Origin: Dehalococcoidia bacterium | GTDB taxonomy: Bacteria > Chloroflexota > Dehalococcoidia > Lucifugimonadales > UBA3495 | DNA: 64,000 nucleotides | Direction of reading: 5' to 3' | NCBI GenBank assembly: GCA_022827095.1 | Contig: JAJDTP010000005.1 | Coordinates: 248,001 to 312,000 of the forward strand | Part shown: positions 1 to 53,565 of the stretch, piece by piece | How the letters are laid out: every line of letters begins with the position of its first letter | Position numbering within the stretch: position 1 is the first letter of the stretch | Program-made: the position numbers and the translations under genes | The notes under the pieces: generated by a model | Told to the model about the DNA's origin: nothing | The model's input: only the letters and a program-made list of their open reading frames with translations | Database searches by the model: none

Positions 1-480
1 GACCGCTCCGGCGGCTTGGCCGGCAAGCGCCTCGGCCTCATGGAGAACTCCAAAGCCAACGCGGACAAGCTCCTGATCGAGCTCGGCAACATCCTCAACG
101 AGCGCCACGGTTTCTCCGAGATCAAGTTCTACGACAAGGGCCACGCCAGCCTGCCCGCCAAGCAGGAGATGATCGACGAGATCTTGAGCGAGGTCGATTA
201 CCTCATCACCGGGGTCGGGGATTGAGGGTCCTGCAGCTCGTGCAGTGTGCACGACGGAATCGACATGGAAAAGCGCGGCGTCCCCACCGCTGCCATCATC
301 ACTCACGTCTTTCTCAACACGGCGCAGGCCATGACCCGCATGATGGGCGTACCCGACTACCGCTACGTAGTCGCCCAGCATCCCCTGTCCAGCCTCACCG
401 ATGACGAGGTCAAGCAGCGCGCCGCCGACTTGGCTGACGAGGTGGAGTCCATCCTGACCGGCCAGCCTGTCGCCGCCTAG
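1..480 (+). CDS. UGSC-family selenoprotein (5' partial, Sec at UGA 223-225)
   Basis: Reading frame 1 is open from the window edge, contains one TGA at 223-225 and ends with TAG at 478-480. If the TGA is read as selenocysteine, the protein runs ...LITGVGD-U-G-S-C-SSCSVHDGIDM..., which has the U-G-S-C motif that names the UGSC family of (seleno)proteins; homologues without Sec carry Cys there. The upstream part (GKRLGLMENSKANAD) and the downstream part (KRGVPTAAIITHVF) both look like conserved protein and lie in the same frame, so this is not a frameshift. A hairpin suited to Sec insertion follows the TGA (238-254). The true start lies before the window. The protein is probably a small cytosolic thiol/selenol redox enzyme; its substrate is unknown. 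It heads a same-strand group with a thioesterase, an AhpD-like selenoprotein and an SDR. Confidence 0.88.
238..254 (+). promoter_or_regulatory. Bacterial SECIS-like hairpin of the UGSC gene
   Basis: A perfect 6-bp stem, TCGTGC (238-243) with GCACGA (249-254), closes a 5-nt loop AGTGT (244-248). The loop begins 19 nt after the TGA and has a G at its second position followed by U, as expected for bacterial SECIS elements (apical loop roughly 16-37 nt downstream with G among the first two loop bases). An alternative overlapping hairpin CTGCA/TGCAG (231-235/241-245) also exists. Confidence 0.72.
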
Positions 481-503: not shown

Positions 504-890
504 GTGGCGTCTCCCGGCACGTCCCAGCCGTCTCGCCTGCCCATCGACCCGGCCATCCGGCCCGGTCTGGCAGGCGAAACTCATTTGACCGTCGCCGCCG
601 AACACCTCGCCCCGCATACGCCCAAGTTCAGCACCCCGGCCATGGTCATGCTCATGGAGCAGGCGTCTTACCAGGCGGTCCTGTCCCTGCTCCACCCTGC
701 CCAGACCGTTGTCGGCTACGAGGTCAACGTCAAGCACCTCGCCCCGGCTGACGAGGGTTCAATCGTCACCGCCCGTTCCATCCTTACCGACGTGTCCGGC
801 AACAAGCTCCGCTTCGAAGTCGAAGCCCGCCACGGCGACCTGCTCCTCGGCACAGCTGAACATAAAATGGCAATCGTCACGCAAACTTGA
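504..890 (+). CDS. FlK-like hotdog acyl-CoA thioesterase
   Basis: A 128-aa single hotdog domain. Residues matching the fluoroacetyl-CoA thioesterase FlK triad (Thr42, Glu50, His76 in FlK) are visible as Thr44 in FSTPAMV, Glu52 in LMEQAS and His78 in NVKHLAPA, with identical spacing of 8 and 26 residues. It should hydrolyse a small acyl-CoA in the cytosol; the actual substrate cannot be read from sequence, and fluoroacetyl-CoA is not implied. The start is GTG at 504, 24 nt after the UGSC stop, with only a weak upstream ribosome-binding site (cggagtcg). Its position between two selenoprotein genes suggests one transcript. Confidence 0.8.
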   Translation: MASPGTSQPSRLPIDPAIRPGLAGETHLTVAAEHLAPHTPKFSTPAMVMLMEQASYQAVLSLLHPAQTVVGYEVNVKHLAPADEGSIVTARSILTDVSGNKLRFEVEARHGDLLLGTAEHKMAIVTQT

Positions 891-946: not shown

Positions 947-1015
947 TCCCCCTGGTGACGCCCTCACCCATGCCTCCGCGCTCGATAACCTCGGAAAACT
1001 GGGAGGTTACCCCTC

Positions 1016-1582
1016 ATGTCCTGGATCCGCGAAACCGACGTCGCCGTCCCCTCGGTGATCAGTTGCATGTCCATCAACCCCGACCTCATGGCGGCGGTCC
1101 AGAACCTCAACGCCAAGGCTACCTTCGGCTCGTCCGCCCTAACCCGCACCCAGGAGGAAGCAATCGCCACCGTGGTCTCCCTGGTCAACCGCTGCCGGTA
1201 TTGAGCCGTCGCCCACGGAGGGTTCCTCCGTCAACACTCCGGCGACCCCGAATACTCCAGCCACATCATCCACGACTACACCCAGGCAGACCTGGACCCG
1301 CAGACTCGCGCCATCCTCGACTACGCCGTCAAGCTCACCCTGACCCCGGCAGCGATGACGGAAGCCGACATCAATGCCCTCCGCACTGTCGGCCTCACCG
1401 ACGAGCAAATCCTGTCCACTGTCGCCATCACCTGCGTCTTCAACTTCATGAACCGCTTGGCCGATGGCCTCGGCGTCGAAATTCCAGAGGGTCGAGAGGC
1501 CATCATGGGCCAATGGCTCTCCGACGCTGCGAAGCAAGCCCAAGACTGGCTCTTCTCCCCGGACGCAGTTGCTGTCTCCTGA
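1016..1582 (+). CDS. AhpD-like selenoprotein, C-x-x-U active site (Sec63)
   Basis: Frame 2 is continuous from ATG 1016 to TGA 1580-1582 except for one TGA at 1202-1204. Reading that TGA as Sec gives 188 aa with VVSLVNRC-R-Y-U-AVAHGGFLRQHSG, i.e. Cys60-x-x-Sec63 where peroxidase-related (carboxymuconolactone decarboxylase/AhpD) proteins have C-x-x-C followed by xxHHG. The N-terminus (MSWIRE...) and C-terminus (LTDEQILSTVAITCVFNFMNR...) both match that family and share the frame. In AhpD the second Cys of the motif is the peroxidatic one, which is the position of Sec here. A strong hairpin follows the TGA. The start is supported by GGAGG at about 1001-1005. The family reduces peroxides or acts as a thiol-disulfide enzyme in the cytosol; the substrate here is unknown. 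Confidence 0.9.
1215..1231 (+). promoter_or_regulatory. Bacterial SECIS-like hairpin of the AhpD-like gene
   Basis: A perfect 7-bp stem ACGGAGG (1215-1221) / CCTCCGT (1225-1231) with loop GTT. If the last pair opens, the loop is GGTTC. The loop starts 17-18 nt after the TGA and begins with G followed by U, closely resembling the E. coli fdhF type of apical loop. Confidence 0.8.
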
Positions 1583-1691: not shown

Positions 1692-2519
1692 ATGACACTC
1701 CTACCATCCGGCCGTCCCCGTCTCCAGGACAAGGTCGCTATCGTCACCGGCTCCGGCTCCAGCGGCCCCGGCGTCGGCACGGGCAAGGCCACGTCGATCC
1801 TCTTCGCCCGCGAAGGCGCTCGTGTCCTACTCGTCGACCGCAACCTCCAGGCCGCCGAGGAAACCCTCGCCGTCATCCACGAGGAGGGCGGCGAGGCCTC
1901 GGTAATCGCCGCCGACGTCACCTCCGCCGCCGACTGCGCGGCCATCGTCGACGCCGCTGTGGAACGCTACGGCGCCCTGCACGTGCTGTTCAACAACGTC
2001 GGCATCACCGGACCCGGCACGCCCACCGATGTTGAGGAGTCCGTGTGGGACAACGTGCTCGACGTGAACCTCAAGAGCATGATGCTCACCACCAAGTACG
2101 CCGCCCCGAAGATGATCGACGCCGGCGGCGGCAGCATCATCAACATGTCCTCCATCGCGGGCGTCCGCGCCGGCAGCGGTCTCGCCAGCATCCCGTATTC
2201 CGCCTCCAAGTCCGGCGTCATCGGCATGTCCGAGACGATGGCCGTCCACCTCGGCCGCGATAACATCCGCGTCAACGTCATCGCCCCCGGGCACATCTAC
2301 ACCCCCATGGTCGCCGGCGCGATGCCCGAGGAAACCCGCGAAAACCGACGCAAGGCTGGCCCACTCGGGGTGGAGGGCAATGCCTGGGACATCGCCTACG
2401 CTGCCCTCTTCCTCGCCAGCGACGAAGCCCGCTGGGTCTCCGGGGTCGTACTGCCCGTCGACGCCGGCCTCCTCGCTGCCACTCCGCTCGCCATGTACAA
2501 CCGCATCCGCGACGAATAA
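1692..2519 (+). CDS. SDR family oxidoreductase
   Basis: A 275-aa classical short-chain dehydrogenase. The NAD(P)-binding segment TGSGSSGPGVGTGKA near residues 19-33 is a slightly expanded glycine-rich loop. NNVG, the catalytic Ser in NMSSIAG and Tyr/Lys in PYSASK are all present, with the usual NVIAPGHIYTPM segment after them. ATG 1692 is chosen because GGAGG lies at 1682-1686 and the Rossmann fold starts soon after; longer open reading upstream has no family similarity. It probably oxidises a secondary alcohol or reduces a ketone in the cytosol; the substrate is unknown. It closes the 1-2519 plus-strand group and is followed by a hairpin terminator. Confidence 0.85.
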   Translation: MTLLPSGRPRLQDKVAIVTGSGSSGPGVGTGKATSILFAREGARVLLVDRNLQAAEETLAVIHEEGGEASVIAADVTSAADCAAIVDAAVERYGALHVLFNNVGITGPGTPTDVEESVWDNVLDVNLKSMMLTTKYAAPKMIDAGGGSIINMSSIAGVRAGSGLASIPYSASKSGVIGMSETMAVHLGRDNIRVNVIAPGHIYTPMVAGAMPEETRENRRKAGPLGVEGNAWDIAYAALFLASDEARWVSGVVLPVDAGLLAATPLAMYNRIRDE

Positions 2520-2682: not shown

Positions 2683-3879
2683 CAGGGCCTTTTCAAAGTC
2701 TTAGAAAAGTATGAATATTGGGGTGTGGAGGAGGTTGGAGATGACCGATAATACGTCGTTGCCAGACGAGTTTGCCCTGTTGCAGCAGGAATTGGGCCGG
2801 TTGACCGACCGGCGTTTTGCGCTGGGCAAGGTGTTTCCTTTAGCTGGGTTGCTCTGTCTTGCGGTGTTGTCGCTGATGTGCGGCTACCGTTCGTTGAGCG
2901 CCATCCACCGGTTTGGGGACACGCATCCGGAGTTGTGGACCCAGTTGAAACTACCACGCAGTCCATCGGTGCCTACGCTATCCCGATTGTTGCGGATGGT
3001 GTCGGTGGGGGAATTGCGTCAGGCCTTGATGCGGTTTGCTCTGGAGTTGGCGCTCCAACGGGGCTGTGGTGTGGGCGTGGTGGCCATGGATGGTAAAACC
3101 ATGGGCGGGGTACGGGAAAGTGGCGAGCAGTTGCGGGTACTGCATTTATTCAGCCAGGAGAGCGCGGTGGCGCTGGATCAGGTGGCGGTGCAGGGGCATC
3201 TGGCCGAACCACGGGCGGCCCAGGCCTGGATCGAGCAGGTGGCGGGACGGATTGAGGGCCTGAGGGTGCTGACGGGAGATGCCCTGTATGCTGATGCTGA
3301 CTTGTGCCAAGCCATCGTGGCTCAGGGCAAGGACTACGTGGTGAAACTCAAAAAAACTGGCCCCAACTGTATCGGGACGTAGAATTGCTCTTCTCCGACC
3401 CGGGGCCGCCGGAGCATATCGCGCTGTGCTACGGCCACGGTCGGCGAGAACGACGACAGGTCTGGGTGTCGGAGGAACTGGCCACTTATGCCGACTTCCC
3501 CGGCTTGACCAGCGTGATCAGGGTGAATCAAGTAGTGCGAGAGCACCCAACCGGCCGAGAAAGGGACAGCGTGCAGTACGGGGTGAGCAGCTTGTCGGAC
3601 TTGACGCCGGACCGAGCGCTGGCCCTGCTGCGGGGCCATTGGGAGATCGAAAACCGGCTGTTTTACGTCAAGGATGACGGGTTAGGCGAAGACCGCCACG
3701 TGCTGCAACACCACCATAGCGGCCTGGTCATGAGCCTCTTGCGCGGCGCTGCCCTGACCTTGCTGCGCGGCAATTGCTCTCTCTGGTCAGACCGCGAACC
3801 CATCACTGGCCGAGCACAAAGGCTCGCAGCCCAACCCCTGGCAGCGTTTTGACCCAAACCCGACTTTGAAAAGGCCCTG
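2683..3879 (+). mobile_element. ISAs1-family insertion sequence
   Basis: The element is about 1.2 kb, bounded by perfect 18-bp inverted repeats: CAGGGCCTTTTCAAAGTC at 2683-2700 and its complement at 3862-3879. It encodes an ISAs1-type DDE transposase. Flanking bases CCATTCCAC (2674-2682) and CCATTCCAA (3880-3888) form an imperfect 9-bp direct repeat, compatible with a degraded target duplication. A small derivative with the same ends and a clean target duplication occurs at 58581-58725. Confidence 0.85.
2741..3852 (+). pseudogene. ISAs1-type transposase with a -1 frame break at an A7 run
   Basis: The first part (from ATG 2741, preceded by GGAGG; an upstream ATG at 2711 is possible) contains the N-terminal ISAs1/H-repeat-associated domain (PLAGLLCLAVLSLMCGYRS) and the DDE start VVAMDGKTMGG, then TGDALYADADL and YVVKLKK. 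It terminates at 3382. The second part, in the -1 frame from about 3350, continues with NWPQLYRDVELLF and the C-terminal GHWEIENRLFYVKDD to 3852. The switch lies at seven consecutive A residues (3350-3356). Either a one-base change inactivated the gene, or ribosomal/transcriptional slippage on A7 restores it; ISAs1 elements are normally single-frame, so inactivation is the simpler reading. The final Glu of the DDE triad is in WEIEN. Confidence 0.82.
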
Positions 3880-51692: not shown

Positions 51693-52289
51693 CTACTCTC
51701 CGAACAACCGGTTGACTTCCAGAGTGATGTCAGGGAAGGCTTGGGGAGCGACGGTTTCGCCGGGGCCGAAGTAGCGCACGGTGGCGTATTCGTTTCCAGC
51801 GGGTTCCGTGTAGGCTTCAATTCGATGCTCGGCGCGGGCGACAATCCACAATTCAGCGATGCCGGCGCGGGCGTAGGCCGCCAATTTGACAGTGCGGTCA
51901 AACTCGACGCTGCTGTCGGCAACCTCAATGAGCAGCAGCACATCGCCGGGAGTCGGGTGGCCGTTCCGGTAGAAGTCATCGCGCCAATGAAGGAGCATGA
52001 TGTCCGGCTGTGGCTCGCTATGTTCGTCGAGTCGCACTGGGTCTTGAACTGCGATGATGGCGCGACCCTGCAAAGAAGGGAGTATCGTATTGTTGACAAG
52101 CTTAACGCTGGCGCCGTGCCAGTTTCCGATAGGAGGCATTTCGATGAGGTCTCCGTCCAGCAGTTCGACGCGGTCGTTTTCCGACAGGATGCCGGCGTCG
52201 GCCATGGCGTAGTACTCAGCCACGGTGAAACGGCGACGGGCCGGAAGGGGGACAGTCGGCGGGGCGGATGCAGCGGTGGTTGTCGTCAT
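51693..52289 (-). CDS. Uma2 family nuclease-like protein, copy 1
   Basis: 198 aa. RRRFTVAEYYAMADAGILSENDRVELLDGDLIEMPPIG, PDIMLLHWRDDFY and PGDVLLLIEVADSSVEFDR, then VKLAAYARAGI are the Uma2 PD-(D/E)xK-like motifs. It is a tandem duplicate of the next gene; both look intact. Function of the family is uncertain. Confidence 0.87.
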   Translation of the reverse strand: MTTTTAASAPPTVPLPARRRFTVAEYYAMADAGILSENDRVELLDGDLIEMPPIGNWHGASVKLVNNTILPSLQGRAIIAVQDPVRLDEHSEPQPDIMLLHWRDDFYRNGHPTPGDVLLLIEVADSSVEFDRTVKLAAYARAGIAELWIVARAEHRIEAYTEPAGNEYATVRYFGPGETVAPQAFPDITLEVNRLFGE

Positions 52290-52301
52290 GGCGAAAGCGG
52301 C

Positions 52302-52895
52302 TCAGTCTCCGATGATTCGGTCAACCGCCAGGGTGATGTTGGGGAAGGCTTGGGGAGCGACAGTTTCGCTGGGGCCGAAGTAGCGCACGGTGGTGTACTC
52401 GTTTCCGGCGGGTTCGGTGTAGGCTTCAATGCGGAGTTCCGGGCGGGAGACGATCCACACTTCCGGGATGCCGGCGCGGGCGTAGGCCTGCAGTTTGACG
52501 GTGCGGTCAAACTCAACGCTGCTGTCGGCAGCCTCAATCAGCAGGAGCACATCGCCGGGAGCCGGGTGGCCGTTCCGGTAGAAGTCATCGCGCCATTGAA
52601 GGAGCATGATATCGGGCTGTGGTTCGTTGTAATTGTCCAATCGTACCGGGTTCTGGACGCTCAAAATAGCCCGATTCTCCAGCAAAGTAGATGGGAATAC
52701 TACGACAATGCTGTTCACGCTGAAGGCGTGCCAGTTTCCGATAGGGGGCATTACGATGAGGTCTCCGTCCAGCAATTCGACGCGGTCGTTTTCCGACAGG
52801 ATGCCGGCGTCGGCCATCGAGTAGTATTCGGCCACGGTGAAACGGCGACGGGCAGGAACGGCCGCCGCTGCCGGAGAGGCGACTTGCGTGGTCAT
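52302..52895 (-). CDS. Uma2 family nuclease-like protein, copy 2
   Basis: 197 aa and roughly 80% identical by eye to copy 1, with the same PDIMLLQWRDDFY, VLLLIEAADSSVEFDR and VKLQAYARAGI motifs; the conserved IEV reads IEA here. It lies 12 nt from copy 1 and 13 nt downstream of the DsbA-like selenoprotein gene, so all three may be co-transcribed. Confidence 0.87.
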   Translation of the reverse strand: MTTQVASPAAAAVPARRRFTVAEYYSMADAGILSENDRVELLDGDLIVMPPIGNWHAFSVNSIVVVFPSTLLENRAILSVQNPVRLDNYNEPQPDIMLLQWRDDFYRNGHPAPGDVLLLIEAADSSVEFDRTVKLQAYARAGIPEVWIVSRPELRIEAYTEPAGNEYTTVRYFGPSETVAPQAFPNITLAVDRIIGD

Positions 52896-52908
52896 TTGCG
52901 GGAAGCAC

Positions 52909-53565
52909 CTATTGCTGGGCGTCGGCGCGGTTCTCCAGGGCTTTGTCCATCACGCGCTGGAAGACCTCATAGGGCTGGGCCCCGCTGAAGAGCAGGTTGT
53001 CGAACACGAAGGTGGGAATGCCACGGATGCCGTAGCCCAGCGCCTCGTGGTACTGGTCGACCACCTTCTGGGCGTAATGCCCGGATTCGACGCGTTGGCG
53101 CAACTCGGAGCCGTCGAGGCCGACGCCGGAGCCGATGTCAGCCAGGACCGATGGATCTCCCAGATCGGCGCCATAATCCCAGTACGCTTCGTAGGCGGCG
53201 TGGTGATACTCAAGGAACTTGCCCTGTTCCTGAGCGTATTCCGTTGCCTGCAGGGAGTAGAGACTGTTGGGAGTGTGCTTGGGCGGCCGCATCACGAGGT
53301 TGGCTTCCCGGGCGTAGGTACGGAGGGGGTCGGCCAGCTCGTCTGGGCTTTCGCCGGGGCGAGACTCGCGGACACGGCCCTCCTGGGGAGTGTCGGGACG
53401 CAGCAGGTAGGCGCGGCCCTCGACGGTGATGTCGTACTCTTCAGAAAGTTTGTCGACGCGTTCCAGGCCGACGTAGCACCAGGGTCAAATGTAGTCGTAC
53501 CAGACGATCACGTGCACGGGATTGGGATCGTCGGGATGGCTGTGGGCCGGCGGCTGGGTGGTCAT
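52909..53565 (-). CDS. DsbA/FrnE-like selenoprotein with U-P-W-C active site (Sec27)
   Basis: From ATG 53565 (GAGGTGAT site) the protein reads MTTQPPAHSHPDDPNPVHVIVWYDYI, then TGA at 53485-53487, then PWCYVGLERVDKLSEEYDI and onward in the same frame to 52909. With Sec at the TGA it is 218 aa with I-U-P-W-C-Y, where FrnE-type DsbA-family oxidoreductases have C-P-W-C-Y. The remainder (LLRPDTPQEGR, PKHTPNSLYSLQATEYAQEQG, GYGIRGIPTFVFDN with cis-Pro IPT) fits the family at full length. No signal peptide, so it is cytosolic like FrnE. The two halves would otherwise be annotated as a short ORF and a truncated DsbA. Confidence 0.9.
53452..53472 (-). promoter_or_regulatory. Bacterial SECIS-like hairpin of the DsbA-like gene
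   Basis: On the minus strand the stem GTCGGC pairs with GCGTCGAC-side bases (five Watson-Crick pairs plus one G-U). After one C-C mismatch a U-G and a G-C pair follow, closing a loop GAA that starts 22 nt after the TGA with G first. It is less regular than the other two hairpins but within the accepted distance. Confidence 0.55.

Follow-up and report, generated by a model that had tools for sequence, protein, structure and literature searches.

The DNA analysed here is a window of 64,000 nucleotides, bases 248001-312000 of contig C5 in a 3.8-Mb genome assembly. At its upstream end lie four genes on the same strand, the third of which is the subject of this work, with the following features:

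16-480, plus strand: gene for a UGSC-family selenoprotein with an in-frame TGA at 223-225, the first of the cluster (NF041046, 155.8 bits against a cut-off of 125; PF24696, E = 1.6e-54)
504-890, plus strand: gene for a hotdog-fold, FlK-like thioesterase (PF22636, E = 7.6e-25), between the UGSC and AhpD-like genes in 9/9 genus loci
1001-1007, plus strand: Shine-Dalgarno-like sequence GGGAGGT, 8 nt 5' of the ATG, read from the sequence
1016-1582, plus strand: gene for an AhpD-like (TIGR01926) selenoprotein of 188 residues including Sec63, as judged from a frame with a single in-frame TGA, the TIGR01926 score and orthologues with TGA at the same place
1202-1204, plus strand: predicted Sec codon TGA for residue 63, which is second of the two active-site residues in CxxU
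1215-1231, plus strand: putative SECIS hairpin with a 7-bp stem, ACGGAGG/CCTCCGT, and a GTT loop, from covariation and the folding of the hairpin alone
1692-2519, plus strand: gene for an SDR-family oxidoreductase, the last of the cluster (PF13561, E = 3.9e-59), downstream in 9/9 genus loci

From the ATG at 1016 to the TGA at 1580-1582 there is a single frame, and its sole interruption is the TGA at 1202-1204. An earlier sequence-only reading had joined the two open reading frames at this codon, and the joined frame is indeed open from end to end. Codon usage is coding-like on either side of the TGA, and the protein reads ...NRCRY-U-AVAHGGFLRQH across it. The joined protein scores 137 bits against TIGR01926 (peroxidase-related enzyme; cut-off 81.8) over residues 8-154 and 45.5 bits against Pfam CMD (cut-off 23), so that the alignment to the CMD/AhpD families proposed in that reading places it above both thresholds. 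Since the TIGR01926 match crosses the TGA, the two halves are one protein. Two families with a related CMD/AhpD domain and Sec in known members do not include it: NF041238, AhpD-related (seleno)protein, gives 59 bits of the 175 needed, and NF053654, YciW-related (seleno)protein, 13.7 of 310. An AlphaFold model of the joined protein, built with 39 aligned sequences, is all-helical with a mean pLDDT of 92.9 and has an AhpD-like fold. Among known structures it resembles 3c1l (M. loti), 2prr, 2pfx and 6k40 (DR_1765) most closely, followed by the Bmp8 debrominase and PA0269.

The conservation of the TGA was followed in a scan of 84,980 public species genomes. The search pattern lay upstream of the Sec site, and hence the scan had no bias for TGA over Cys. 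It found 55 loci, all in Chloroflexota (Dehalococcoidia/SAR202), with TGA at the site in 49 (two of these, L095 and L105, are frameshifted elsewhere), TAA in one (L100), Gly in four, Glu in one, and Cys in none. In 60 relatives, the best matches span the full length of the protein and contain one internal TGA each, no more. Among named organisms, the closest are Dehalococcoidia/SAR202 Chloroflexota from metagenome assemblies; the protein of SAR202 cluster bacterium bin87 is 92% identical over its whole length. For nine genus orthologues, dN comes to 0.01-0.09 upstream of the TGA and 0.06-0.15 downstream, while dS is about 0.5 to 1.6 on both sides (0.77-1.6 downstream). As read from these alignments, purifying selection is equal 5' and 3' of the TGA, with dN far below dS on both sides. 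The conservation of the site, together with the low dN relative to dS 3' of it, excludes a sequence error, a pseudogene or a truncated product. That the TGA is a decayed or misread TGC/TGT of an ancestral CxxC, an idea to which the Cys-containing CxxC members elsewhere in the family lend some colour, is thus refuted by conservation across independent assemblies, and given also the lack of Cys in the clade, the purifying selection 3' of the TGA and the covarying hairpin, we give it practically no credence. Three genus members, G004, G008 and G012, each of >90% completeness, have no match to the AhpD-like protein; therefore, the gene is dispensable within the genus.

The stem of the hairpin starts after a 10-nt spacer from the TGA, and its loop is 18-20 nt 3' of the TGA. 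The earlier description of this hairpin as a candidate SECIS element stands, since it covaries and is conserved, but the distance of 17-18 nt given with it is true of the loop and not of the stem. The element at 1215-1231 lies just 3' of the UGA and has a small apical loop containing G (GUU), as is expected of a bacterial SECIS. The hairpin alone folds with -10.4 kcal/mol (z = -3.4; none of 200 shuffles was as good), whereas the folding energy of wider stretches around it is not significant versus shuffles (z = -0.6 to -0.7), and Rfam gives no matching SECIS family at the hairpin, with one chance match below threshold. Since the energy of the longer stretches is not significant, the comparative evidence must decide. 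Over 45 distinct Sec-form sequences, 98.1% of the stem cells are paired, compared with 92.6% in shuffles and 41-58% when the register is slid, and the cells changed on both sides of the stem number 16 versus 2.9 in shuffles. The top pair of the stem is G-C in 29 of these sequences, A-U in 10 and C-G in 5. These counts include distant TGA paralogues (L047, L049, L050, L106, L107, L117, L121 and L124), which are 32-46% identical to the AhpD-like protein, and leave out six distant TGA forms in which the hairpin is in another register or less clear.

Because the hairpin sits within codons, its pairing is partly set by the amino acids. Resampling of synonymous codons in the TGA forms gives an expectation of 4.6 of the 7 pairs, while 6.9 are observed. 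For the six non-TGA forms the observed value is 5.5 versus 4.9, and one of these, the TAA copy, has all 7. At the level of the alignment, then, compensatory changes keep the hairpin in the TGA forms, and the non-TGA homologues, save the TAA copy, have a disturbed hairpin. The stem couples position 2 of codon 69 to position 3 of codon 70, and the variants GGG-TTC, GCG-TTG and GAG-TTT encode Gly-Phe, Ala-Leu and Glu-Phe, respectively. Residues 69 and 70 thus covary so that the hairpin stays paired, and this clade shows clearly what limits a SECIS within a coding sequence sets on the protein. In L100 (also L045), where TAA replaces TGA, the hairpin is intact and the end of the contig is near; the TAA is either a recent inactivation or an assembly error.

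The host genome has the means to read UGA as Sec. SelA (540.9 bits), SelB (355.5 bits) and a tRNA-Sec with anticodon TCA are present, and SelD is a selenoprotein itself, with an in-frame TGA in the motif CAGU (L140, G000:C20:25400-26900, minus strand). SelA is above the cut-off in 55 of the 60 relatives. One might suppose that TGA is reassigned without any involvement of selenium, for example to Gly as in table 25, since sister paralogues have Gly (GGA/GGG/GGC) at this very site. However, TGA terminates 16 of the 41 long ORFs in the window, including the AhpD-like gene itself at 1580-1582, and on this basis TGA is not reassigned in this lineage. The full Sec machinery, and a hairpin that is retained with TGA but disturbed with GGN, likewise make this explanation vanishingly improbable. 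The central claim of the sequence-only reading, an AhpD-like selenoprotein with C-x-x-U, is upheld by the TGA in 49/55 loci, by selection 3' of it and by the compensatory pairs. In terms of sequence it is confirmed that 1016-1582 is one gene, in which the TGA at 1202-1204 is predicted to encode Sec at residue 63 of C-x-x-U. Standard annotation would break the gene in two at the UGA and call both parts hypothetical, despite the family being widespread in Dehalococcoidia/SAR202.

The homologues that have Gly or Glu where the others have Sec (L096-L099 and L104) group together with support of 97/89, as the sister of the Sec clade in a tree whose root is not fixed. Glu48 and Cys60 are kept in this clade, and mostly His67, without a redox residue at position 63. 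It has its own set of common gene neighbours, which, recognised by eye, we take to be tsaD and acetolactate synthase. Both kinds are present in at least G014, and second copies without an internal stop suggest that the same is true of G017 and G027. As these five homologues have neither Sec nor Cys at the site, the redox role is dispensable in the sister clade, and the two clades offer a natural comparison of Sec with Gly. Another clade is represented at L139 (G041:C22:18300-23500, minus strand), where four tandem AhpD-like genes each carry a CR[YF]U motif with an in-frame TGA, followed in each by an ACGCAGG/CCTGCGT hairpin of its own.

What might the selenoprotein do? Glu48, Cys60 and His67 are invariant in 48 Sec forms, with Tyr or Phe at position 62 and Sec at 63. 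The spacing is exactly that of Glu36/Cys48/Tyr50/Cys51/His55 in PA0269 (PMC3141380). P. aeruginosa PA0269 and M. tuberculosis AhpD, to which our protein is about 20% and 12% identical, respectively, have a proton relay of Glu-Cys-Tyr/His-Cys-His, the second Cys being Sec here; in AhpD, both CxxC cysteines are needed within the five-residue relay (PMC3141380), and the label 'peroxidatic' that the sequence-only reading gave to the second position goes further than the evidence. D. radiodurans DR_1765 (6k40) and M. loti mlr4105 (3c1l) share the fold and domain, with an RMSD of 1.6-3.1 Å and 30-37% identity, but have Cys as the second active-site residue where our protein has Sec. A D. radiodurans mutant without DR_1765 is more sensitive to H2O2 (PMC8945050). 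From the fold, the relay residues and this mutant phenotype, we infer that the protein would be a selenol-based peroxide or disulfide reductase.

In the mechanism that we propose, SelB carrying Sec-tRNA would bind the hairpin at 1215-1231, and Sec would be inserted at the UGA at 1202-1204 to yield an all-helical protein of 188 residues whose redox motif is Cys60-Arg-Tyr-Sec63. Glu48, Cys60, Tyr62, Sec63 and His67 would constitute the AhpD proton relay, which would activate the selenolate for attack on a peroxide or disulfide. This would leave Sec63 joined to Cys60 in a selenenyl-sulfide, which a thiol partner may then reduce. The gene thus very probably encodes an AhpD-like, peroxidase-related selenoprotein (TIGR01926/COG2128), with SECIS-directed Sec63 and relay-activated selenolate chemistry. 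The readthrough frame, conserved Sec codon, conserved hairpin, Sec machinery, fold and relay residues are seen in the sequence; Sec incorporation, enzymatic activity, substrate and reductant are proposals built on them.

A selenoprotein could also carry out chemistry other than peroxide or disulfide reduction, such as reductive dehalogenation as in Bmp8. This debrominase, crystallised with a bromopyrrole, is a fold relative of our protein (6ohi and 6ohj, TM about 0.7) with a weak profile match, and the company of an FlK-like thioesterase and an SDR suggests metabolism over stress defence. However, Bmp8 is just 19-20% identical, the closest structures are annotated as antioxidant or peroxidase-related, and it is the mutant of the closer relative DR_1765 that is sensitive to H2O2 (PMC8945050). 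Hence we consider such chemistry unlikely.

The order UGSC, FlK-like thioesterase, AhpD-like gene and SDR is found in 9/9 genus loci. UGSC is an already-known selenoprotein family, as its score above the NF041046 cut-off indicates, and its TGA and hairpin, TCGTGCA-GTG-TGCACGA, are kept in 8 genus loci. Outside the genus, UGSC, FlK and SDR neighbours were not found near the other members of the clade, except for distant SDRs of about 30% identity and one CoA-transferase of 26%, and the gene neighbourhood there gives no functional clue. It is conceivable, if doubtful, that the four genes of this SAR202-related genus make up a single metabolic module that depends on selenium, with the AhpD-like protein reducing some metabolite, perhaps halogenated or acyl-CoA-linked, rather than serving in general peroxide defence.

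AhpD-like selenoproteins with CxxU were described in 2005 from the Sargasso Sea and assigned to COG2128 (PMC1088965). They counted among the most abundant in the 2008 GOS survey (AhpD-like 1; PMC2398784) and are placed under TIGR01926 in a 2026 review (PMC13188914). The known proteins share with ours the domain family, Sec as the second residue of CxxU, the in-frame UGA and, 3' of it, a SECIS whose small apical loop contains G (PMC1088965, PMC2398784, PMC13188914). The sequence-only reading had treated the protein as notable; the selenoprotein assignment holds, but the CxxU family has been known since 2005 (PMC1088965), and the protein is a further, well-supported member of it. The clade differs from the known family in belonging to Chloroflexota, in adjoining a UGSC selenoprotein and in having a Gly/Glu sister clade. 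What is new is the adjoining UGSC selenoprotein in a genus-wide four-gene cluster, the Gly/Glu sister clade, and the SECIS pairing that couples two adjacent residues. Our literature search found no paper combining SAR202 and selenoprotein.

Elsewhere in the window, a TGA-joined ORF pair at 52302 on the minus strand (51696-52949) was considered as a selenoprotein and rejected, since it consists of two complete Uma2-family genes that lie next to each other in frame, with the TGA between them. An ISAs1-type transposase, apparently in two overlapping reading frames, follows the SDR gene at 2711-3852.
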